DNA of 64,000 bases from Lysobacterales bacterium (GCA_026988115.1 JALSLV010000047.1:1-64000); one strand, 5' to 3'. Positions 38,805 through 48,836 are shown, counted from the stretch's first letter. Made by a program: numbers and translations. Notes: generated by a model not told the origin, from the letters alone.

Positions 38805-38827
38805 AAATGTGATACCAATCACAAATT
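38805..38827. promoter_or_regulatory. CRP-type binding site
   Basis: TGTGA-TACCAA-TCACA (38808-38823) matches both consensus half-sites of the cAMP receptor protein, flanked by A/T triplets (AAA and AAATT). Its centre is about 69-70 bases upstream of the start point expected from the promoter at 38851, close to the class I activating positions. A crp gene is not in the window. Confidence 0.65.
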
Positions 38828-38843
38828 GTAAATATATTTACAA
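38826..38843. promoter_or_regulatory. Perfect palindrome, candidate operator
   Basis: TTGTAAATATATTTACAA is an 18-bp perfect palindrome between the CRP-type site and the -35 box (8 bases upstream of it). It fits a dimeric repressor or activator site. TyrR boxes are TGTAAA-N6-TTTACA; here the spacer is N4, so TyrR is not assigned. Confidence 0.55.
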
Positions 38844-38878: not shown

Positions 38879-38926
38879 TGGATTTATTGAAAATGGAAAG
38901 TACTAATATTAATGCAAGAGGTTATT

Positions 38927-40060
38927 ATGAAGAATACACAGACAAGAAAGATAGAGTTGGTTAAATCACAAGCTAATAAAAACATCCAGGTGCAACCCAT
39001 ACCTGTTGTTCTTAACCAGTGCAAGCGAGCGTTTACCACAAGACATGTCAATTTAGGTGATGCGCATACCCTGTTAACAGGAGAAGTCAAGCCCAAAGCA
39101 GGAGATTTGGTTCTTTGTGAAGTGACCCGTTTGAGGCAACATTGCCGCATTGAACAGCCAAATGGACGGCGTAGTCGAATGTTTGTGCATGATAAGATTG
39201 TTGTTTGTTATGGAAACCGCTATGCGCCTGATCAATTTGAATCAGTTGTTCCTGATGATTTAAGTGCATGCCATTTGGTGGCAGGTGGTGGCGTTGCCTC
39301 TCACATGCGTTTTAAAAGCCCGAAGGTTAAACCCGCTACTGAAATTCAGCCTTTAGGGTTGTTGGGCAATAAACATGGACAAGTTTTAAATCTGAATCAA
39401 TACAATGTTTTGACTCCTTCTAAAACAGAAACTTCAAAAAACATTCCAATTCTTCTTGTCTCTGGATCTTCCATGAACGCAGGCAAAACAACAACAGTTG
39501 CTAGCCTGATTAAAGGGTTAACAGCGGATGGCTTTAATGTTTCGGCTGCAAAAGTTACGGGCACAGGCTCTGGTGGTGATTTATGGCATTTTATTGATGC
39601 AGGTGTATCAAAAGCAATTGATTTTACCGATGCAGGGCTGGTTTCAACTTACCTTATGTCAAATCAAAGCTTGGTTCGGTTATTTGATGAAATGATAACT
39701 TATTTAAAAACACCGCAAACAGATGTAATCGTAGTGGAAGTGGCAGATGGTATTTTACAAGGTGAAACGAAAGCATTGCTTGAATCACCAGAAATAATCA
39801 ATGCAACAACAGCAATGGTTTATACGGCAGGTGATAGTTCTTCCGCAGTTTATGGCGATAATTGGTTGCAATCACTGGGTTATCAAGTTTTGGGAATATC
39901 AGGGGTCGTTTCATCTAATCCATTGGGTGTTCAAGAAGTGGAAAAAATGACCTCTACTCCAATTTTTAAGAAAAAAGAAACGGTGGCGGCGGGTTTTGGT
40001 CATCAATTGCATGACATGCTCTTGGAATTAAGTCTTTCACCCCTAAGAGTGGATAAATAA
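38927..40060 (+). CDS. P-loop NTPase, DUF1611-like, operon head
   Basis: The 377-residue product has an N-terminal region of about 165 residues without a recognised domain and a C-terminal P-loop domain. The P loop is GSSMNAGKTTT (about 180-190), followed by LIKGLTADGFNVSAAKVTGT and VIVVEVADGILQGET, a pattern shared by DUF1611-type and BioD/MobB-like NTPases. AGAGG lies 6-7 bases before ATG 38927, which is preferred over 38912. It starts a five-gene operon with an exporter, a hydrolase, a porin and a secreted repeat protein; gap to the next gene is 6 bases. Function unknown. Confidence 0.7.
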   Translation: MKNTQTRKIELVKSQANKNIQVQPIPVVLNQCKRAFTTRHVNLGDAHTLLTGEVKPKAGDLVLCEVTRLRQHCRIEQPNGRRSRMFVHDKIVVCYGNRYAPDQFESVVPDDLSACHLVAGGGVASHMRFKSPKVKPATEIQPLGLLGNKHGQVLNLNQYNVLTPSKTETSKNIPILLVSGSSMNAGKTTTVASLIKGLTADGFNVSAAKVTGTGSGGDLWHFIDAGVSKAIDFTDAGLVSTYLMSNQSLVRLFDEMITYLKTPQTDVIVVEVADGILQGETKALLESPEIINATTAMVYTAGDSSSAVYGDNWLQSLGYQVLGISGVVSSNPLGVQEVEKMTSTPIFKKKETVAAGFGHQLHDMLLELSLSPLRVDK

Positions 40061-40066
40061 AACGCC

Positions 40067-41743
40067 ATGAAAAATCAATTTTCACCCTTTAACCCTCCAG
40101 CCAATTATTGGAAGAAATCTCGATTCCAAATAGTGCAACTGATTATTAATGGTTTACTCAAATCATCGGTTGTTGTTGGCAGTTATTATTGGGTGAAAAA
40201 CCTTTCTTCGCAGATAAGGAATCAACAAGAAATCAATACGCACACCATTGTTTATTTGTTAATCGCAGCAGGATTAATTGTGGCTTTACGGGTGCATGAA
40301 CGCTACGTGTCAGAAAAAATGTCACAACGTTACATCAATTCACTTCGTTCGGGCTTGCTTAAACGTTTAATGCGTGCCTCGGTTAGAAACATTCAAGCGC
40401 GGACTATCGGAAACTTATCTTCACGTTTGGCAGGTGATTTATCTGCTTTAAAGCGATGGTTGAGTCTAGGGATTTCACGATTAATCACACACAGCTTGTT
40501 GTTGCTATTGACGACACTATTGGTTTTTAAGATAAATGCGTCATTGGGTGTTGTTATTTCATTAACCTTAATGGCTTTGTTGGTGTTGTCGGTGCTTGTT
40601 GGTGGTTTTTTAAAAAATAGCATTAGGGTTGTTCGGCGCAATAGGATTGCCATTCACAGTTTGTTGGTGGAACGCTTGTCGTCATTGGCTACAATTCGCT
40701 CTATGGGAAAAGAAGGGCGTGAAGTGGCACGAATTAATAAACAAGCAAAAAAATTAGAAAAAAACATTGCAAAACAGGGGGTGTTTTTGGGTTTTATCCG
40801 CGGCATAGGAGACTCTTCTTCATTAATTTTAATCAGTGTGTTTTTTGTCTTTAATGGGCTAAATAATCATGTTTTGGCATTAGATGAAATCACGGCTTTG
40901 ATAAGTATTATTTTGTTTTTAAATTCCCCAATTAGGGAATTGGGTAGGACGCAAGAATATTACCAAGGAGCGAAATTATCCATCGCAAAAATTGAAGAAT
41001 TGTATGCCATTCCCAGAATAGTCAGAGGCAAAAGCAGTCACGAAACGATTGAAAAAGATTCGGCTTCGCTTGGGCGAATTGAGTTAAGAAATACCACCGT
41101 AAAAGAAACGTTTAAACAGCTGTCTGTACGTGCCCAAAATGGTGAGCATATTGCATTGACTGGAACTAATGGCTCAGGCAAGAGCACATTAATTCAGATT
41201 GTACTTGGCTTGATAAAAGTGGACTCAGGTTTTGTTCGAGTTAATGGCAGTGCGCCCAATAAGACACCTTCGTTAGATAGAGCAAATCATATTGGTTTTG
41301 CCTCGGCAGAAGCGGGTCTTATCAAAGGCACTTTGTTGGAAAATTTATGTTACCGTAAAGGCAAAGAAAATTTGCAAGGATTTGATGAATTAATGGAGTT
41401 TTGTCAATTAAATAACCTAGTCAAAAAACTTCCCAAGGGTTTGAATACACGCATTTTAGAAAAAGGAAAGAACTTATCTTCGGGCGAAAAAGCACGCATT
41501 TTATTATTTAGGGCCTTATTAGGGAAACCTGCCATATTGATATTAGATGAGCCTGAGAGTTATCTAGATAAACAAGGTCTTGAAATCATAAAAAGCCTAT
41601 TAGGAGAGTATAAAGGTACTATTTTAATGGCGACACACAATATCGAATTAATAAAGCTTTGCCATAAAGAGTGGAATATGGATAGTTTAAAGAAAAACAA
41701 ATCTCCAGTGAGACTAATAAATGATTATGCAGAAAACAAATAA
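40067..41743 (+). CDS. ABC exporter (fused permease and ATPase) with altered Q loop
   Basis: The 558-residue product has six hydrophobic segments in residues about 20-300 and a C-terminal ATPase. Walker A is GTNGSGKST (about 367), signature LSSGEKAR, Walker B ILILDEP, and the H loop MATHN. The Q-loop Gln expected in V-P-Q before the GT(L/I)xEN segment is absent (FASAEAGLIKGTLLEN). It is probably a homodimeric inner-membrane exporter. The downstream hydrolase gene starts 23 bases before its stop codon. Cargo is unknown; no peptidase C39 domain is present, so a processed bacteriocin-type cargo is not indicated. Confidence 0.88.
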   Translation: MKNQFSPFNPPANYWKKSRFQIVQLIINGLLKSSVVVGSYYWVKNLSSQIRNQQEINTHTIVYLLIAAGLIVALRVHERYVSEKMSQRYINSLRSGLLKRLMRASVRNIQARTIGNLSSRLAGDLSALKRWLSLGISRLITHSLLLLLTTLLVFKINASLGVVISLTLMALLVLSVLVGGFLKNSIRVVRRNRIAIHSLLVERLSSLATIRSMGKEGREVARINKQAKKLEKNIAKQGVFLGFIRGIGDSSSLILISVFFVFNGLNNHVLALDEITALISIILFLNSPIRELGRTQEYYQGAKLSIAKIEELYAIPRIVRGKSSHETIEKDSASLGRIELRNTTVKETFKQLSVRAQNGEHIALTGTNGSGKSTLIQIVLGLIKVDSGFVRVNGSAPNKTPSLDRANHIGFASAEAGLIKGTLLENLCYRKGKENLQGFDELMEFCQLNNLVKKLPKGLNTRILEKGKNLSSGEKARILLFRALLGKPAILILDEPESYLDKQGLEIIKSLLGEYKGTILMATHNIELIKLCHKEWNMDSLKKNKSPVRLINDYAENK

Positions 41744-42536
41744 AAACAACCCAAAGTTTAGCGGCAGCATAAAGAAAGGCAGTTTATCTTCTTGTGATAA
41801 ATTAAAGTACTATTATGTTAAGGGCGGTGACGAAATAAGCAATATTGTGGTTTTGGTTCATGGTATTTCCAGAAATGCTGAAGAAATAATTAACAGTTTT
41901 AGTCAACAGATGAGTCCTGACAGCTTACTAATCGCACCAGTTTTTTCTAAAGATTATGCCACTGATTACCAACGCTTAGGTCGGAAAAGTAAAGGACCAA
42001 GAGCCGATTATATACTGCAAGCCACCATCAATGAGTTGTCAACTCAGTATGATATTGAAGTGAATAAGATAAATTTATTTGGCTTTTCAGCAGGAGCTCA
42101 ATTTGTGCAACGATATGCCTTTGCCCATCCTGCTCAGGTGAAAAAAGTAGCCATTGTGTCAGCAGGTTGGTATACCATGCCAAGCTTTAGTGAGTATTAC
42201 CCTTATGGTTTAAAGCTCAGAAATGAATTTTCGGATATTGATTTTAAGTTCATGCGATTCTTGAGAGTTAAATACCGTGTGTATGTTGGAGAAAAAGATT
42301 ATTTGCGTGATAAATCACTAAATAAAAGCAAAAAAGTTGACAGATTGCAGGGTCAAAACCGATTAGAAAGAGCTGAAAGTTGGACAAATAAAATGAATAA
42401 GTGTTTTGAAAAATACGCGATAAAAAACAGAGTCAGTTTAGAAGTTTTAGAGAATGTTACCCACGATTTTAGTTTAGCTGATAATTTGGGTCATCTGTGT
42501 GGAAAAGTTTCTCGTTGGTTTAAGCAAGAAGATTAA
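41721..42536 (+). CDS. Alpha/beta hydrolase (esterase/peptidase-like)
   Basis: The 271-residue product shows VVLVHGISRNAEEI (oxyanion region), the nucleophile elbow LFGFSAGAQF (Ser about 122) and a C-terminal His in NVTHDFS (about 247), the elements of a serine alpha/beta hydrolase; the acid residue is probably in VYVGEKD. No signal peptide is visible. Several Lys-rich stretches occur near the end (LNKSKKVDRLQ). It overlaps the ABC exporter gene by 23 bases and precedes the porin gene by 3 bases, so it belongs to the same system. Substrate unknown. Confidence 0.82.
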   Translation: MIMQKTNKNNPKFSGSIKKGSLSSCDKLKYYYVKGGDEISNIVVLVHGISRNAEEIINSFSQQMSPDSLLIAPVFSKDYATDYQRLGRKSKGPRADYILQATINELSTQYDIEVNKINLFGFSAGAQFVQRYAFAHPAQVKKVAIVSAGWYTMPSFSEYYPYGLKLRNEFSDIDFKFMRFLRVKYRVYVGEKDYLRDKSLNKSKKVDRLQGQNRLERAESWTNKMNKCFEKYAIKNRVSLEVLENVTHDFSLADNLGHLCGKVSRWFKQED

Positions 42537-42539
42537 AAC

Positions 42540-43643
42540 ATGAAATTTTTAATTTGTTTACTAATAATGGCATTTAGTTTGAACCTGAATGCAAAAATCA
42601 GCTACGATTTTGGTGCAAGAATGGAGGCTGATTATAGTTTTTATGATGACGACCAAAATATATTTCCTGATAAAGAATGGGATGTTAGGCGGTTTCGATT
42701 TGGTTTGTTTACTAAGTTTAATGAGAAGTTTTCTGCCTATTTTCAATCTGATATTTCTAATTTTGAGAGGAAGCGAAAAGGTGCAACACAAGCGGTATGG
42801 TTGCGTTATCGACCAAATAAGAGAAATGAATTTTTTGCAGGTAAAATGGAAATGCCATTTAGTCTTGAGAGCGTCAGTAACTCTAAATACCATTTTTTTA
42901 TGGAACGTTCTATTTCTAGTGCCTTAACTGAGCGTTTTGGAACTGGGATTAACTACATCCATTATGGGAAAGATTGGAATATTCGATTTGGACTATTTGG
43001 TGATGATCACTACGAACTGGGAAGTTCAAGTTTTTATGGCAAAGCCATGACGACCCGATTTGGTAAAAAAATAAAAATAGCTGGCAATAAGTTTTATTTT
43101 GGTGCTTCTTTTCAATATAGAAAACCTAATACATCAATCAGAATTAGAACGCGGCCAGAATCTAATGCATTTAATTATAAACTACTTGATACAGGTACAT
43201 TGTTTTTTATTAATTCGATTGAAAAGTATGGGTTGGAGGCTCTATGGAAGAAAGGCTTATGGACAATGCAAGCAGAATACATACAGAATAAGTTTACCCG
43301 AGATTTTGTGCAGCCAGACCTTAAATACGACGGTGGGTATTTTATTATAAGTAAAATATTTAATGGTCAAAGGCGATTTAGTTTTAGGAAAGGTGAGTGG
43401 GCATCGACCAAGGTAAAAAAACACAGAACTTGGGAAGTGTCGGCTCGTTACAGTTATTTAGATTTAACAGATGAAAACTTAAATGCAGGATACGAAGAAA
43501 ATATTTCATTAGGAATAAATTATTATATAAGCAATAAAAATCGTTTAATGTTTAATTACATACAAGCGAAAACAACACCCAATAGTTTTGGAATAAATCA
43601 AACACTAAATATACTTCAAGCCAGATTTCAGCTTGAGTTTTAA
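42540..43643 (+). CDS. OprP/OprO-like outer-membrane porin
   Basis: The 367-residue product has a signal peptide (MKFLICLLIMAFSLNLNAK) and a barrel of amphipathic strands resembling phosphate-selective porins: DVRRFRFGLFTKFNEKFSAY, LRYRPNKRNEFFAGKMEMPF, and FMERSISSALTERFGTGINY. It ends in the strand LQARFQLEF with the terminal Phe that BAM recognises. Many Arg and Lys residues suggest an anion-selective pore. It is gene four of the operon, 3 bases after the hydrolase and 12 before the repeat protein. Confidence 0.85.
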   Translation: MKFLICLLIMAFSLNLNAKISYDFGARMEADYSFYDDDQNIFPDKEWDVRRFRFGLFTKFNEKFSAYFQSDISNFERKRKGATQAVWLRYRPNKRNEFFAGKMEMPFSLESVSNSKYHFFMERSISSALTERFGTGINYIHYGKDWNIRFGLFGDDHYELGSSSFYGKAMTTRFGKKIKIAGNKFYFGASFQYRKPNTSIRIRTRPESNAFNYKLLDTGTLFFINSIEKYGLEALWKKGLWTMQAEYIQNKFTRDFVQPDLKYDGGYFIISKIFNGQRRFSFRKGEWASTKVKKHRTWEVSARYSYLDLTDENLNAGYEENISLGINYYISNKNRLMFNYIQAKTTPNSFGINQTLNILQARFQLEF

Positions 43644-43655
43644 TCAGAGGATATT

Positions 43656-45899
43656 ATGAAAATTTTTATATTACTTTTATTGATTGCGATTAGTGGTCAA
43701 GTTACAGCCATTAATGTGACCGCACCTATACGAACAAGCCATGTTGGACCCGATTCGAATAAAGAATACGATGCTGAAGAGTCTGCTGTTGCATTCAACT
43801 CACAAAATAATGAGTACCTAATCGTCTTTGAAGGAACAGACTCTATTACAGGAACAGGTGTTAATGTTAAGGCAGCTATAGAAATCTTTGCCCAAAGAAT
43901 TGATGCCACAACAAATGCCCCGCTTGCTCAACTGATAAAAATAAGCGAAATGGGACCCTCTGGCAATACCACCTATGATGCCAGAAAACCAGATGTAGTC
44001 TATAACCCACAAGCCAATGAATACATAGTGGTGTGGTATGGAGACACCAACTCTGTAAGCGGGGCTAATACGGTAGAAGGAGAGTTTGAGATATGGGGAA
44101 GAAGGATAAATGCAGCAAATGGACAGCCTGTTGGCTCGCAATTTAAAATTTCAGAAATGGGGCCGACTGCCAACCGTTCTTACGATGCTGTCGATCCTGT
44201 GATTGCTTATAATGAAATAGAAAACACTTATTTAGTGGTATGGCGTGGAGAAGATGGTAACACAGTAAATGCAATAGGAGAGTTTGAAATTTATGGTCAG
44301 CAGTTAAGTGCCTCTGGTGCTCAGATTGGTGCCAATGATTTTAGAATTTCGGATATGGGTGCGAATGGCCAGCCCATTTTTGATGCCTATTCACCATCAA
44401 TTGCCTACAATAAAACCAATAATGAATTTTTAGTGGTTTGGTATGGGGATGACGATAAAAATGGACATGTCAGTGGTGAGTTTGAGATATATGGCCAGCG
44501 CTTAAATGCAAGTAACGGGGCAGAAGTAGGGGTTAATGATTTTCAAATTTCTGAAACAGGTGTTCCTGGTTTTGCCACGCGATCAGCTCAGTTTCCATCA
44601 GTTGCGTGGAACAGCATTGATAACCAATACCTCGTTGTTTGGTCTGCTGATCCAGCCACAGGGGTTTATGTCGGTAATGAGTTTGAAATATTCGGGCAAA
44701 TATTAGCAGCAGATGGTAGTGAAATTGGAGATGATGATTTTGCTATCAGCCACATAGGACCCGATGGAAACAATAACTACGATGCCTTTAGACCACAGGT
44801 CGAATACATGAAGCAATCAAAGCAATATTTGGTGGCTTACCGAGCGGATACTGATGTGGATGGTGAGTTTGAAATATTTATGCAAAGACTTGATGGAAAA
44901 ACACAGCTTAGGCTAGGGCAAACAAGCCAAAGGATTTCACACGCAGGTCCTGAGGGGTCATTGGTCTATGATGCTAGGCGAGTGGACCTTGGCTATAACA
45001 GCAATACAGGCGAAGCCCTATTAATTTGGGAACAAGAAGATAATAACACTTCGCAAATATTGGGTGAATTAGAAATCTATGCCAGCACAGTAACTCCCTC
45101 AGAGTTCATTGCGGATTACACCACCTCAGGTTCGTGGTATGACGTCAATCGCAGTGGAGAAGGCTACATAATCGAAATGTTGCCCAATAATGGCGTGCTT
45201 GTGATGTGGTTTACGTATTTACCCAATCAAGCTGAACAGGCGTGGTTGATAGGCACAGGGAGTTATAATGGTAATAGAATCCTTTTGGAAAATGTACAAA
45301 TTACCTCGGGCGGTGTTTTTGGCCCTACTTTTGATCCTGCATTAGTGCAACGTCAAGTGTGGGGAGATATTTCCTTTGAATTTGATGGCTGCAATGCAGG
45401 AATTATCAATTACAATGCCATAAGTAGCAGTTACGGTGATGGCGATCACGCAACAACCCGATTAACCAGTTTATCTGGAGCAAATTGTACAACACATGCT
45501 CAATCAACAGATGTTTTAGATGGAATATCTGGTGCGTGGTATGACCCAACACATGATGGTGAGGGGTGGTTTTTAGAATACCTTGGAAGCAATAATGTCC
45601 TGATGTATTGGTTTTCTTATGATAACCTAGGTAACCAAAAGTGGATGTTAGATGTCGGAACGATTGATGCAAATAACCTCATTACTTTTGCCAATATGAG
45701 TCAAAAGAATGGCACGTTTTTTGGAGAAAACTTTAACCCAGCGAATGTCAATAATATCAACTGGGGAACCATGCAAATGCAGATAAATGACTGCAACTCA
45801 CTGTCGGTGAGTTACGATTCGCCTATCGGAATTTATGGTCAAGGTGTATTAAATGCTACCCGAATTACTGATATTGATCAGATAGAATGTCAGTTATAA
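43656..45899 (+). CDS. Secreted protein: seven propeller-like repeats plus two C-terminal WYDP/GEGW domains
   Basis: The 747-residue product has a signal peptide (about residues 1-19). Residues about 27-475 hold seven repeats of 60-70 residues with the core (I/T)S-x-x-G-x-x-x-x-x-x-(Y/F)DA, AYN, (E/Q)-(Y/F)-L-V-V-W, then FEI(Y/F)GQ; seven copies suggest a seven-bladed beta-propeller. Two related domains of about 110 residues follow (SGSWYDVNRSGEGYIIEML and SGAWYDPTHDGEGWFLEYL), each ending near a Cys pair region (DGCNAG, DCNSL). This C-terminal domain occurs in secreted proteins of Xanthomonas-like bacteria, as I remember. Last gene of the operon; probably surface-exposed or released, role unknown. 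Confidence 0.8.
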   Translation: MKIFILLLLIAISGQVTAINVTAPIRTSHVGPDSNKEYDAEESAVAFNSQNNEYLIVFEGTDSITGTGVNVKAAIEIFAQRIDATTNAPLAQLIKISEMGPSGNTTYDARKPDVVYNPQANEYIVVWYGDTNSVSGANTVEGEFEIWGRRINAANGQPVGSQFKISEMGPTANRSYDAVDPVIAYNEIENTYLVVWRGEDGNTVNAIGEFEIYGQQLSASGAQIGANDFRISDMGANGQPIFDAYSPSIAYNKTNNEFLVVWYGDDDKNGHVSGEFEIYGQRLNASNGAEVGVNDFQISETGVPGFATRSAQFPSVAWNSIDNQYLVVWSADPATGVYVGNEFEIFGQILAADGSEIGDDDFAISHIGPDGNNNYDAFRPQVEYMKQSKQYLVAYRADTDVDGEFEIFMQRLDGKTQLRLGQTSQRISHAGPEGSLVYDARRVDLGYNSNTGEALLIWEQEDNNTSQILGELEIYASTVTPSEFIADYTTSGSWYDVNRSGEGYIIEMLPNNGVLVMWFTYLPNQAEQAWLIGTGSYNGNRILLENVQITSGGVFGPTFDPALVQRQVWGDISFEFDGCNAGIINYNAISSSYGDGDHATTRLTSLSGANCTTHAQSTDVLDGISGAWYDPTHDGEGWFLEYLGSNNVLMYWFSYDNLGNQKWMLDVGTIDANNLITFANMSQKNGTFFGENFNPANVNNINWGTMQMQINDCNSLSVSYDSPIGIYGQGVLNATRITDIDQIECQL

Positions 45900-45940
45900 A
45901 TTGTAAATTAGTTTACATTCATCAAATTTGAGAATATAGT

Positions 45941-46050
45941 TAGTGCCTGACCGCGAAAGGAATCGTAGCGAGGGAATGTCTGGTTTGAAGCAATTTATGC
46001 ATAAATCCAGCTTTTCAGCAGTAGATTACTTCTTTCTCGGTCAGGCACTA
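45941..46050. mobile_element. 110-bp MITE with TAGTGCCTGACCG terminal repeats
   Basis: TAGTGCCTGACCGCGAAAG (45941-45959) and CTTTCTCGGTCAGGCACTA (46032-46050) are inverted repeats with one mismatch. The outer TA may be a duplicated TA target. The right end resembles 8315-8363, so both may belong to one family. No coding capacity. Confidence 0.75.
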
Positions 46051-46093: not shown

Positions 46094-46366
46094 ATGAAAA
46101 TCAAAAATAAAATAAAAATTATGTCTTGTACATTGGTACTTATTTCAAATTTTGCATGGTCACAACAAGTCACGAAAGTGAATAAAAACTGTTATGTTAT
46201 CAATAAAGATATTGTTGGCACTGGAGGATCTCCATCGGATGTTATTGGTACTGGAGGATCTCCAAGTGAAATAATAGGTATTGGAGGATCTCCAAGTGAA
46301 ATAATAGGTATAGGTGGTATTACTACTTATTGTACCCCAAAAAATAGTAGTGGCACAGATAGTTAA
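46094..46366 (+). CDS. Small secreted peptide with GIGGSPSE(I/V)I repeats
   Basis: The 90-residue product starts at ATG 46094, with AAGGA about 9 bases upstream; an earlier in-frame ATG at 46055 lacks a site. A signal peptide (about residues 1-26, ending FAWSQ) leads to a mature peptide of about 65 residues. Three to four 10-residue repeats, G(T/I)GGSPS(D/E)(V/I)I, sit between two Cys residues (KNCYV and TYCTP), so a disulfide could close the repeat region into a loop. No family recognised. The motif EIIGIGGI recurs at the C terminus of the DUF5666-like protein two genes downstream. A terminator follows. Confidence 0.65.
   Translation: MKIKNKIKIMSCTLVLISNFAWSQQVTKVNKNCYVINKDIVGTGGSPSDVIGTGGSPSEIIGIGGSPSEIIGIGGITTYCTPKNSSGTDS
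46217..46306 (+). repeat. 30-bp in-frame tandem repeat, three copies plus a partial
   Basis: Units begin at 46217, 46247 and 46277 (GG.A.TGGAGGATCTCCA), with a partial fourth at 46307. Copies two and three differ by one base. They encode the 10-residue repeat of the secreted peptide; copy number could change by slippage. Confidence 0.85.
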
Positions 46367-46393
46367 TAATTGTATTTCACAATAAAATAAAAG

Positions 46394-46420
46394 CCTTAAC
46401 AATTGTTTTAAGGTTTTTTT
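46394..46420 (+). terminator. Rho-independent terminator of the GIGG-repeat peptide gene
   Basis: CCTTAA (46394-46399) and TTAAGG (46408-46413) form a stem around an inner self-complementary ACAATTGT, followed by seven T. Confidence 0.65.
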
Positions 46421-46507
46421 AACATTGGAATAATATATTTGCAAATAACTTTACAATTTAAATATTATGTTTTTTTAGAGATTAAATAACTTTGATAATA
46501 ACTTTAA

Positions 46508-47344
46508 ATGACTCATATGCCTAAAATTGCTGAACTCAATCGTTTATTAAGCTACATGGCTTATCGTATCTTTGAGCCGTTGGTTATTCTGTTTTTGAGA
46601 AATTCTGTTCCTTATCAAACTGCGTCGGATTGGTTAAAAAGAATCTATGTCGATGTGGCATTGGAAAATAAGGAGTTTAGGATAAACCCTGATAAAAAAC
46701 AAACCAAAACCAGAGTGGCTGTTTTAACGGGTTTATCGCGTGTTGAAATAGATCGGGTGTTGAAAATTGAAAAACCCCTAGAAGTAACAGAACAAAAATG
46801 GAATCGAGCAACCAAAGTTTTATCTGGGTGGTCGAATGACTCTAGGTACGTTAGTCAAAATGGACAACCTAAAGATTTACCAATTTATGGAGAGCATTCA
46901 TTTAGTTCACTAGTTGACAATTACAGCGGTGGAGCTACCATGCGTTCAGTTTTAGATGAATTAGTTTATGTGGGTTCCGTAGAAATTTGTAATAATAATG
47001 TTAGGTTAATAAGAACAGATTATGCACCAACTCCGAATAAGGCAAAATTGATTGATCTAGAGTTTTATGGAATATATATTGGGGAACTCTTAAACACCAT
47101 TACATATAACGATATTGAGGTTGATGAAGAGAAAAAAAGATTTCAAAAAATAGTTTTTCATCGAACTATTCCAGAATCTAATAAAAAAGAAGCCATTGAT
47201 TTTATTAAAGAAAAAACGGATGTACTGTTGTCAGTAGTTGATCAAAAATTGTCAGAGCTCGCGGAGAGTAAGTTATCAGAACCTACAACTCGATTAGGGT
47301 TGGGAACATATTATTTTGAAGAGGTAAATCATGAAAAAAATTAA
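46508..47344 (+). CDS. DUF6502 family protein
   Basis: The 278-residue product has the features I associate with DUF6502: an N-terminal helical region (LNRLLSYMAYRIFEPLVILF, then RIYVDVALENKEF), the putative helix-turn-helix-like stretch KTRVAVLTGLSRVEIDRVLK, and WNRATKVLSGWSNDSRYVSQ followed by a Gly-rich segment and a helical C-terminal half. There is no membrane segment, so it is cytoplasmic; the HTH-like part hints at DNA binding but this is inference. Its end overlaps the start of the DUF5666-like gene by 14 bases, a coupled pair. The function of the family is unknown. Confidence 0.75.
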   Translation: MTHMPKIAELNRLLSYMAYRIFEPLVILFLRNSVPYQTASDWLKRIYVDVALENKEFRINPDKKQTKTRVAVLTGLSRVEIDRVLKIEKPLEVTEQKWNRATKVLSGWSNDSRYVSQNGQPKDLPIYGEHSFSSLVDNYSGGATMRSVLDELVYVGSVEICNNNVRLIRTDYAPTPNKAKLIDLEFYGIYIGELLNTITYNDIEVDEEKKRFQKIVFHRTIPESNKKEAIDFIKEKTDVLLSVVDQKLSELAESKLSEPTTRLGLGTYYFEEVNHEKN

Positions 47345-48836
47345 AACTATCCTTGTGTTGTTAATTATAATATTTTCTACACTTATAAATGCCCAGTTGA
47401 TAAAAGTGAATGGTATTCGAGATTTTATTATCGATAGCAAAACATTGGTTTCTCTTGATGGTGTAATCATAGACAATAATACACTGTTTGAAATAATAGG
47501 ACATGGCGGATATAAAATTAGATTTAGAGTCGGTGGGGATGTAAACACTACAATTTCTACCGGAACTTTGAGTGAACTAGACTTTATATCTGATATTAAG
47601 GGGCCTATAACTAACCTTAATCCTTTAACTATATTGGAGCAACCGACTTTTATTACATCAGACACAAATCTTATAAATTTAATATCTGTAGCAGACTTGA
47701 ATGTAAGTGACTTATTAAAAGTTAGTGGTTCAATTAACGAGGTTGATAACTCTATGCAATTATCACGATTAGAATTAGATAACGGTCTTTCGGAATGGAA
47801 ACTCCGTGGTTTTGCAAGAAATATTACGGCACTAAATTTTACCATTGGTAATTTAACCATTAATATTAATGCAGTATCCGCAATAGATTGTAGCAATGGT
47901 TTTATTGAAAATGTTTTTGTTGAGGTTAAGGCAATGCCTGATGCCAGTTATGTTGCAGGCAATCCATTGTCGACGCTAACAAGTATACAGTGCCAGACTC
48001 CAGATGTTTATGAAGACCCTAATAACAGTATTCCAGTCGTAGTTGAAGCGATGGTTTCGGAAATTATAGACTTATCATCGTTTAGAATTAATGACTTAGT
48101 GGTGTTTTTTGATGGCAGTACAAGTTTTGATAACGGTGAGTCAGAGCATATAGATGTCGGGACCAAAATAGAAGTGCAAGGATTTCTTGATACCAATACC
48201 CGTTTTATTAATGCAACAACTATTCGATTTATTCACCACAGAGTTAAATTTGTGGCGCCAGTTAAGCCTGCCGATATTACCATAGGCGAGGGTGTTTTAA
48301 TTTTTGGCAAGCAGGTTTCTATTACACCACAAACAAGAGATGACGATGCCATTGTTTCATCTGGTCTTATAGCAGAACGACAAGTAGAAGTAAGAGGTTT
48401 TGTCGACTCAATGGGAAATGTTTATGCCTTGCGAGTCAAAGACAAAGGCACACCCGATAATACAGACACTAAACTGAGAGGTGACATTACCGCTTTAAAT
48501 CAGCCAATCTTTGAACTGGATGGAGTTGCAATAGATGCAAGCGCCTCGCTATTTGAGATAGAGACTGGTTTTGTTGATATTAATGCATTTTTTGCAATGC
48601 TTCAAGTGGGTATGCAGGTCAAAATTGAACATGCAACATACGATGTAAATACGCAAATACTGACGGGAGGCGTGATTGAATTGATAGAACAGGAATTAGA
48701 AGATGATCCCGAAAATACGAACAAATCAAACGTGATTTCAGCACCAAAAGAAATAATTGGTATTGGTGGAATAGGATTAGCGACTGTGACTAAAGTTTCC
48801 GTTATAGAAACAATATTTAAGGCAAGTTTTGAATAA
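47331..48836 (+). CDS. Secreted DUF5666-like protein with C-terminal GIGGIG motif
   Basis: The 501-residue product has a signal peptide (about residues 1-22, ending INA) and is built of several repeated OB-like beta units with hallmarks such as VKVNGI, DFIIDSKTLVSLDG, VEVRGFVDSMGNVYALRVKD and LRGDITALNQPIFELDGVAI, the pattern of DUF5666 proteins. Cys residues are few (DCSNGF, IQCQTP). Near the C terminus EIIGIGGIG repeats the motif of the secreted peptide at 46094. The ATG lies inside the DUF6502 gene, so the two are translated together. Probably periplasmic or extracellular; role unknown. Confidence 0.7.
   Translation: MKKIKTILVLLIIIFSTLINAQLIKVNGIRDFIIDSKTLVSLDGVIIDNNTLFEIIGHGGYKIRFRVGGDVNTTISTGTLSELDFISDIKGPITNLNPLTILEQPTFITSDTNLINLISVADLNVSDLLKVSGSINEVDNSMQLSRLELDNGLSEWKLRGFARNITALNFTIGNLTININAVSAIDCSNGFIENVFVEVKAMPDASYVAGNPLSTLTSIQCQTPDVYEDPNNSIPVVVEAMVSEIIDLSSFRINDLVVFFDGSTSFDNGESEHIDVGTKIEVQGFLDTNTRFINATTIRFIHHRVKFVAPVKPADITIGEGVLIFGKQVSITPQTRDDDAIVSSGLIAERQVEVRGFVDSMGNVYALRVKDKGTPDNTDTKLRGDITALNQPIFELDGVAIDASASLFEIETGFVDINAFFAMLQVGMQVKIEHATYDVNTQILTGGVIELIEQELEDDPENTNKSNVISAPKEIIGIGGIGLATVTKVSVIETIFKASFE

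Follow-up and report, generated by a model that had tools for sequence, protein, structure and literature searches.

The window, the whole 64,000-nucleotide stretch of Lysobacterales DNA that we analysed (GCA_026988115.1 JALSLV010000047.1:1-64000), carries a block of three plus-strand genes flanked by a gene for a secreted protein (43656-45899) and one for a Ser/Thr kinase (49109). The first, coding for a 90-aa exported repeat peptide (46094..46366), is followed by a 278-aa DUF6502 gene (46508..47344), a member of PF20112 (124 bits against a cut-off of 27, E 5.6e-36) predicted to encode a HetR-like transcription factor, and this gene overlaps by 14 nt that of a 501-aa exported DUF5666 protein (47331..48836), which matches the PF18914 profile above its cut-off in three stretches (E 2.6e-20). 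Open-reading frames, Pfam assignments and the overlap agree with the initial annotation, which had described a repeat peptide followed by a DUF6502 gene coupled to a secreted DUF5666 gene; no function is recorded for either Pfam family. The motif EIIGIGGI, which that annotation had placed in both the peptide and the C terminus of the DUF5666 protein, is indeed present in both, in the latter as EIIGIGGIG (48750..48776, plus strand), and an additional copy that had escaped it, EIIGHGG, lies near the N terminus of the same protein (47490..47510, plus strand). The sharing of EIIGIGG is not a chance match, because the pattern [IV]IG[IT]GG occurs only five times in the whole genome, three times in the peptide, once in the DUF5666 C terminus and once in a 21-aa frame. 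Across the genus, in-frame matches in such a context were limited to peptide and DUF5666 genes, the remainder falling in unrelated proteins. The DUF5666 protein ends in a FKASFE tail (48810-48836), and similar F-x-x-[SG]-F-[ED] ends (FKASFE, IFKNGFE) are found on many secreted proteins of the family and order (L016, L058, L068, L088 and others), possibly as a C-terminal sorting signal.

The peptide reading frame runs from an ATG at 46094 to a stop at 46364-46366, with an RBS-like AAGGA upstream and a predicted Sec-like leader (MKIKNKIKIMSCTLVLISNFAWS, about residues 1-23). Two cysteines, Cys33 and Cys80 (the latter in ITTYC), bracket four VGTGG/IIGIGG repeats, whose G[TI]GG cores start at residues 42, 52, 62 and 72 and which form the tandem array DIVGTGGSPS-DVIGTGGSPS-EIIGIGGSPS-EIIGIGGI (46208..46327, plus strand), encoded by a 30-bp repeat family. 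The repeats gave pS 0.62 and pN 0.13, indicating purifying selection between the copies. The gene is followed by a terminator-like hairpin with a T-run on the same strand (about 46389..46420; RNA fold -9 kcal/mol, z -2.85), which is AT-rich and was overlooked by a GC-based consensus terminator scan and seen by direct folding. Upstream lies a MITE-like element of 110 bp with 19-bp terminal inverted repeats (45941..46050), which has 29 matches in the genome of the window and up to 57 in a congener. By analogy with PatX, we propose the peptide as a ligand precursor. In none of the relatives searched was a GIGG peptide found between the secreted-protein gene and DUF6502. The expectation that GIGG peptides would stand beside other DUF6502/DUF5666 pairs is consequently borne out only in altered form: none occupies the equivalent site in relatives, whereas tags recur on the partners, and DUF6502-like paralogs adjoin repeat peptides whose cores differ.

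Three putative operators were found at the locus. O1 (TGTAAATATATTTACA, 38827..38842) lies upstream of an exporter/porin operon and is kept there in L366, L367 and L368, three relatives in which the palindrome likewise heads the operon; O2 (TGTAAATTAGTTTACA, 45902..45917), an exact copy where 0.01 are expected per window, lies 192 bp upstream of the peptide ATG, or 82 bp once the 110-bp MITE is subtracted; and O3 (TGCAAATAACTTTACA, 46440..46455), with one mismatch, precedes the DUF6502 ATG by 68 bp. The 3.5-Mb genome of the window holds two exact copies of TGTAAAN4TTTACA, namely O1 and O2, ca. 7 kb apart and both at this cluster, and the weight of the observation rests on clustering and conservation, because ~1.4 chance copies are expected genome-wide. 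Exact copies also precede DUF6502 in five relatives, by 68-71 bp in four of them and by 158 bp in the other, and in L369 the operon and DUF6502 are divergent with a single copy between them. In the main DUF6502 clade a different palindrome, TTGGGA-N6-TCCCAA, was found upstream of DUF6502 in 41/76 loci, against 0.29 expected by shuffling and 23/1497 in other windows, often right before the start codon, and it was also present in 13/56 loci of the class survey. The exporter/porin operon (38912..45899, plus strand) is a conserved set of five genes assigned by Pfam: a P-loop protein, an ABC exporter (40061), an alpha/beta hydrolase (41721), a porin O/P (42540) and the secreted protein next to the block (43656). 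Congeneric relatives and one relative from another genus keep this set adjacent or close to DUF6502, and on these sequence grounds we propose the operon as a member of the DUF6502 regulon.

DUF6502 was present in 37 of 61 relatives and, among 370 gammaproteobacterial genomes, in 100; a named survey contributed 80 more loci, some of them from Ca. Thiodiazotropha, Nitrospirota and Desulfobacterota. Of the 99 non-redundant DUF6502 genes in the class survey, 88 had a same-strand downstream neighbour, 84 of them within 30 bp, and GTG occurred in the first 200 aa of 70/88 of these partners compared with 46/456 other ORFs (Fisher p 8e-40; such p-values overstate independence, because the surveyed loci share descent). 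Partners lacking GTG mostly carried variants such as EIIGSG, ENDGTTG or RGSGV, and a few had no visible tag. Among the named loci, a frame with G[ITVMLF][GSTV][GS][TS]G lay directly behind DUF6502 in 68/73, against 2/267 random windows of the same loci. A tagged exported protein after DUF6502 is therefore a well-supported and widespread sequence pattern, of which the window is one instance.

The partners belong to mutually unrelated families with only the tag in common. The majority are DUF5666 lipoproteins with GGIGGTGIS after the lipobox, most of these carrying a single copy within a large protein, and the others range from 80- and 93-aa peptides (L087, L146) to a 1505-aa protein (L138). Several hold arrays: a small partner in L086 has IEKSGTG six times before its signal peptide and AGGGTGV 15 times after it, that in L083 has AETEGTGI (four copies) and SDEGTGG (six copies) on the two sides of its signal peptide, the L139 partner ends in 18 copies of RAIRGSGV, and GIGGTG arrays occur in L156, L157 and L278. 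Arrays ahead of the signal peptide were seen in L079-L086, L089 and L295. We rejected GIGGTG as a genome-wide regulon mark: 40 of 72 strict DNA-pattern matches in the 370 genomes adjoin DUF6502, the remainder are equally rare whether or not a genome has DUF6502, and the ones inspected fell in unrelated proteins or in other frames, L278 excepted. This last (G341:C1:2291000), a 632-aa orphan tagged paralog that contains seven G[IV]GGTG repeats, lies far from DUF6502, and its genome also has a normal DUF6502 pair.

The tag is conserved as protein, its amino acids being kept amid synonymous scrambling. Third positions of tag codons vary as in other Gly codons, and tag arrays reach pS 0.82 with pN of 0-0.21, giving pN/pS of 0-0.36 where pS is at least 0.38; array units are 21 to 39 bp long with no fixed phasing, and a few loci hold recent array copies (L139, L344, L346). 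Among 24 DUF5666 partners from relatives of the window, tag copies lying 34 to >400 residues apart shared 99% identity within a protein and 60% between proteins, a within-protein match that none of 5000 permutations reached (kinship being ignored in these). Such uniformity is what would be expected if one partner reads all copies.

With the window peptide as query, a weak homology search pointed to a diverged DUF6502-like gene (G006:C53) followed by a peptide with six VVGDGSS repeats. These DUF6502-like paralogs, which occur in the genome of the window and in its relatives, are joined to DUF6502 by hhalign (E 4e-43), and in ~15 of the 20 paralog loci read there was an adjoining small exported repeat peptide, usually with a Cys before and after the array. 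At least three such pairs are present in the genome of the window itself, with VVGDGSNVS (C12, L344), VGGDGTGNK (C112, L345) and KIDSDGSGVT (C85, L346) repeats, and in the last of these, as in the window, the peptide gene precedes that of the regulator. Within an array the repeats are uniform or nearly so, and the arrays differ from one another. The layout of these paralog peptides is also that of the window peptide, whose core, however, matches that of its own DUF5666 neighbour. The paralogs did not share a single upstream operator: some had dyads of their own and others had none. A long DUF6502-like gene paired with a short one was also found in L347 and L348 (same genome) and in L354; these pairs have no repeat peptide, and those of L347 and L348 are divergent with dyads in between, for example AACTATCGTAAAAAGTTACGATAGTT.

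An AlphaFold model of DUF6502 based on 49 sequences (pLDDT 86) contains a helix-turn-helix at 67-85 and a winged helix at 93-167. The top VIA-align match of the window model was HetR (4j00, Z 8.1, 219 residues), with four more HetR entries listed, and HetR also came first for the Ca. Thiodiazotropha model (Z 8.4, 217 residues), where it made up five of the first six; for both models the match spanned the full length, the rmsd was 10-11 A and Z barely exceeded the level of unrelated models. The non-HetR rows near the top were single helix-turn-helix or winged-helix pieces. Foldseek alone gave no significant PDB match, the DUF6502 profile retrieved no PDB sequence, and the Pfam HetR family was not listed for any of the 49 DUF6502 proteins at E up to 10. 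Using HetR chain sequences from the PDB, hhalign paired DUF6502 weakly (E 0.0012-0.0034) with HetR 185-282, the flap end and most of the hood, the HetR side consisting of just two near-identical sequences because no HetR was found in plasmids and viral contigs. In a single comparison, 250 unrelated ORFs and 100 shuffles scored below single HetR sequences, and in the profile alignment the PatS-contacting HetR residues Glu253/254 were not kept. Agreeing, individually weak results from sequence and models thus make homology of DUF6502 and HetR likely, although not proven. The HetR fold has three domains, a helix-turn-helix DNA-binding domain, a flap and a hood. The last two were described as new folds, and PatS6 binds on the hood by adding a strand to beta-3 (PMC4649674). 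In the main clade (L168-L246) DUF6502 itself ends in a tag-like GTGRK-x-AGIGIYYFE, corresponding to about residues 258-278 in the window, which might be an internal mimic of the tag.

The resemblance to the HetR-PatS/PatX/HetN system of filamentous cyanobacteria, which sets the pattern of heterocysts, extends beyond HetR being the best structural match of the modelled regulator. In Anabaena, RGSGR or RGTGR is the sole feature common to PatS, PatX and HetN (PMC7761841), and the DUF6502 partners are likewise otherwise unrelated proteins with a short G-[ST]-G core in common. PatX is exported by Sec and matures outside the cytosol (PMC12756182), as the DUF6502 partners are predicted to be exported; the ABC exporter HetC acts in the HetR network (PMC4133259), and an exporter operon is in the proposed DUF6502 regulon; and the operators of HetR and of the main DUF6502 clade are both palindromes with GGG/CCC half-sites. 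The two differ in that DUF6502 has no significant Pfam match to HetR, in that the tag lacks the flanking Arg of RG[ST]GR (RGSG was found only in L139), and in operator spacing or sequence, HetR requiring GGGN5CCC (PMC4192349) where the main clade has GGGAN6TCCC and the window clade TGTAAAN4TTTACA. DUF6502 also differs in the direct linkage of its ligand gene to the regulator, the tandem arrays, the DUF5666 carriers and the non-cyanobacterial hosts. The locus may accordingly be said to work like HetR-PatX by analogy, in the absence of that system's defining Pfam match, RG[ST]GR and GGGN5CCC. In the RRNPP systems of Gram-positive bacteria (Rap-Phr, PlcR-PapR), the regulators are TPR proteins, a small exported peptide gene adjoins the regulator gene, and paralogous pairs have diverged peptides. 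DUF6502 shares the regulator-peptide adjacency and the diverged paralog pairs, but has a helix-turn-helix and winged helix and no TPR.

We consider it probable that a peptide controls transcription at this locus through a switch like that of HetR-PatS/PatX, in which the tagged exported proteins are ligands of the HetR-like DUF6502. DUF6502 would occupy the TGTAAAN4TTTACA palindromes and through them control the operon to which it belongs, that of the exporter and porin and, in the species of the window, the peptide gene. The 90-aa peptide and the DUF5666 protein would carry the ligand core x-G-[TSI]-G-x, the tandem arrays acting as multi-copy precursors; export followed by trimming outside the cytosol, as for PatX, would free the tag, which would re-enter the cytoplasm, dock on the hood-like C-terminal domain of DUF6502 and alter DNA binding. 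This switch is supported by the association of the tag with DUF6502, its unrelated carriers, pN/pS, within-protein uniformity, the paralog peptides, the HetR match and the palindromes, and also by the PatX precedent of Sec export with extracytosolic maturation. That DUF6502 is a regulator, as the initial annotation had suggested, is well supported, and the tag-DUF6502 association is equally well supported. Both this regulatory role and the reading of the shared motif as a recognition element are strengthened independently by the cross-phylum tag association, protein-level conservation, concerted change within proteins, the modelled HetR-like fold and the shared operator. These features are computational results, whereas binding of the tag to DUF6502, its processing, secretion and re-entry, the sign of regulation and a cell-cell role are inferred. 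Against the switch count that no importer or processing protease for the tag was identified, and that a large DUF5666 lipoprotein with a single tag seems no obvious pheromone precursor. The missing Pfam match to HetR, the high rmsd and modest Z, the negative Foldseek result, the two-sequence HetR profile, the loss of Glu253/254 in the alignment and the lack of flanking Arg in the tag likewise weigh against it.

The main rival is that DUF6502 is a dedicated adaptor, a chaperone or sensor for export that recognises tags on unexported precursors, so that any regulation reports an export backlog and there is no extracellular peptide signal. Translational coupling and tags ahead of the signal peptide would enable capture of nascent partners, and such an adaptor would account for the chaperone-then-substrate order of overlapping genes and for the arrays ahead of signal peptides, which would remain cytosolic. 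However, the helix-turn-helix and winged-helix fold and the operators common to a separate operon fit a ligand better than cargo, as do small peptides that hold little beyond the array, and we regard the adaptor as unlikely. Similarly doubtful is that DUF6502 is a local repressor of its own operon, the tag being a surface assembly or anchoring motif recognised extracellularly and never by DUF6502. The position of the tag after the lipobox in DUF5666 lipoproteins suits a surface role, and the operators would suffice for the linkage to DUF6502, but the sharing of the tag among unrelated DUF6502 partners and the presence of arrays ahead of signal peptides, on their cytosolic side, are left unexplained.

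Two further readings concern the sequences themselves. Were the ORF of the window peptide decayed or fortuitous, the DUF6502-DUF5666 pair alone would matter; the absence of the peptide from the equivalent site in all relatives searched and the adjoining MITE are in keeping with this, but the leader, the RBS-like sequence, a Cys-bracketed array as in the paralog peptides, the hairpin with its T-run, the exact operator copy and purifying selection between the repeats make it quite improbable. A nucleic-acid element (a binding site or recombination repeat) that is in frame by coincidence could be imagined from repeats at gene starts adjoining a DNA-binding protein gene and from the recent copies in some arrays. 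The freedom of third codon positions, pN/pS far below 1 and units without fixed phasing speak against it, and with the codon test and pN/pS we reject a motif at the DNA level as largely refuted and scarcely credible.

We found no mention of DUF6502, the tag or the pairing in the open-access literature (preprints and most subscription papers lying outside this scope), and no report there of HetR-PatS outside cyanobacteria; HetR has so far been viewed as a lone cyanobacterial invention. A putative HetR-like regulator with its linked, tagged and exported partner would be found in about a quarter of the sampled gammaproteobacterial genomes (100/370), plus Nitrospirota and Desulfobacterota. If true, the proposed switch would assign a role to two Pfam families that are so far uncharacterised, would set the origin of the heterocyst switch in a broader context, and would represent Gram-negative peptide signalling amenable to tests in ordinary laboratory hosts; because the ligand gene is linked and the operators are palindromic, the idea can be tested directly. 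More tentatively, and with somewhat less than even confidence, we suggest that DUF6502 and its paralogs form a HetR-related superfamily outside cyanobacteria, each member with a private exported repeat-peptide signal and several parallel channels in some species; heterocyst patterning would then represent a specialised branch of an older and widespread family of bacterial peptide signalling.

Individual loci showed other arrangements. In L090 and L297, two convergent DUF6502 genes with overlapping ends were found with no tagged partner. In one related genus (L079-L085), the gene immediately upstream of DUF6502 resembles, by eye, an EAL-type (c-di-GMP) protein, a hint of a possible link to c-di-GMP signalling.
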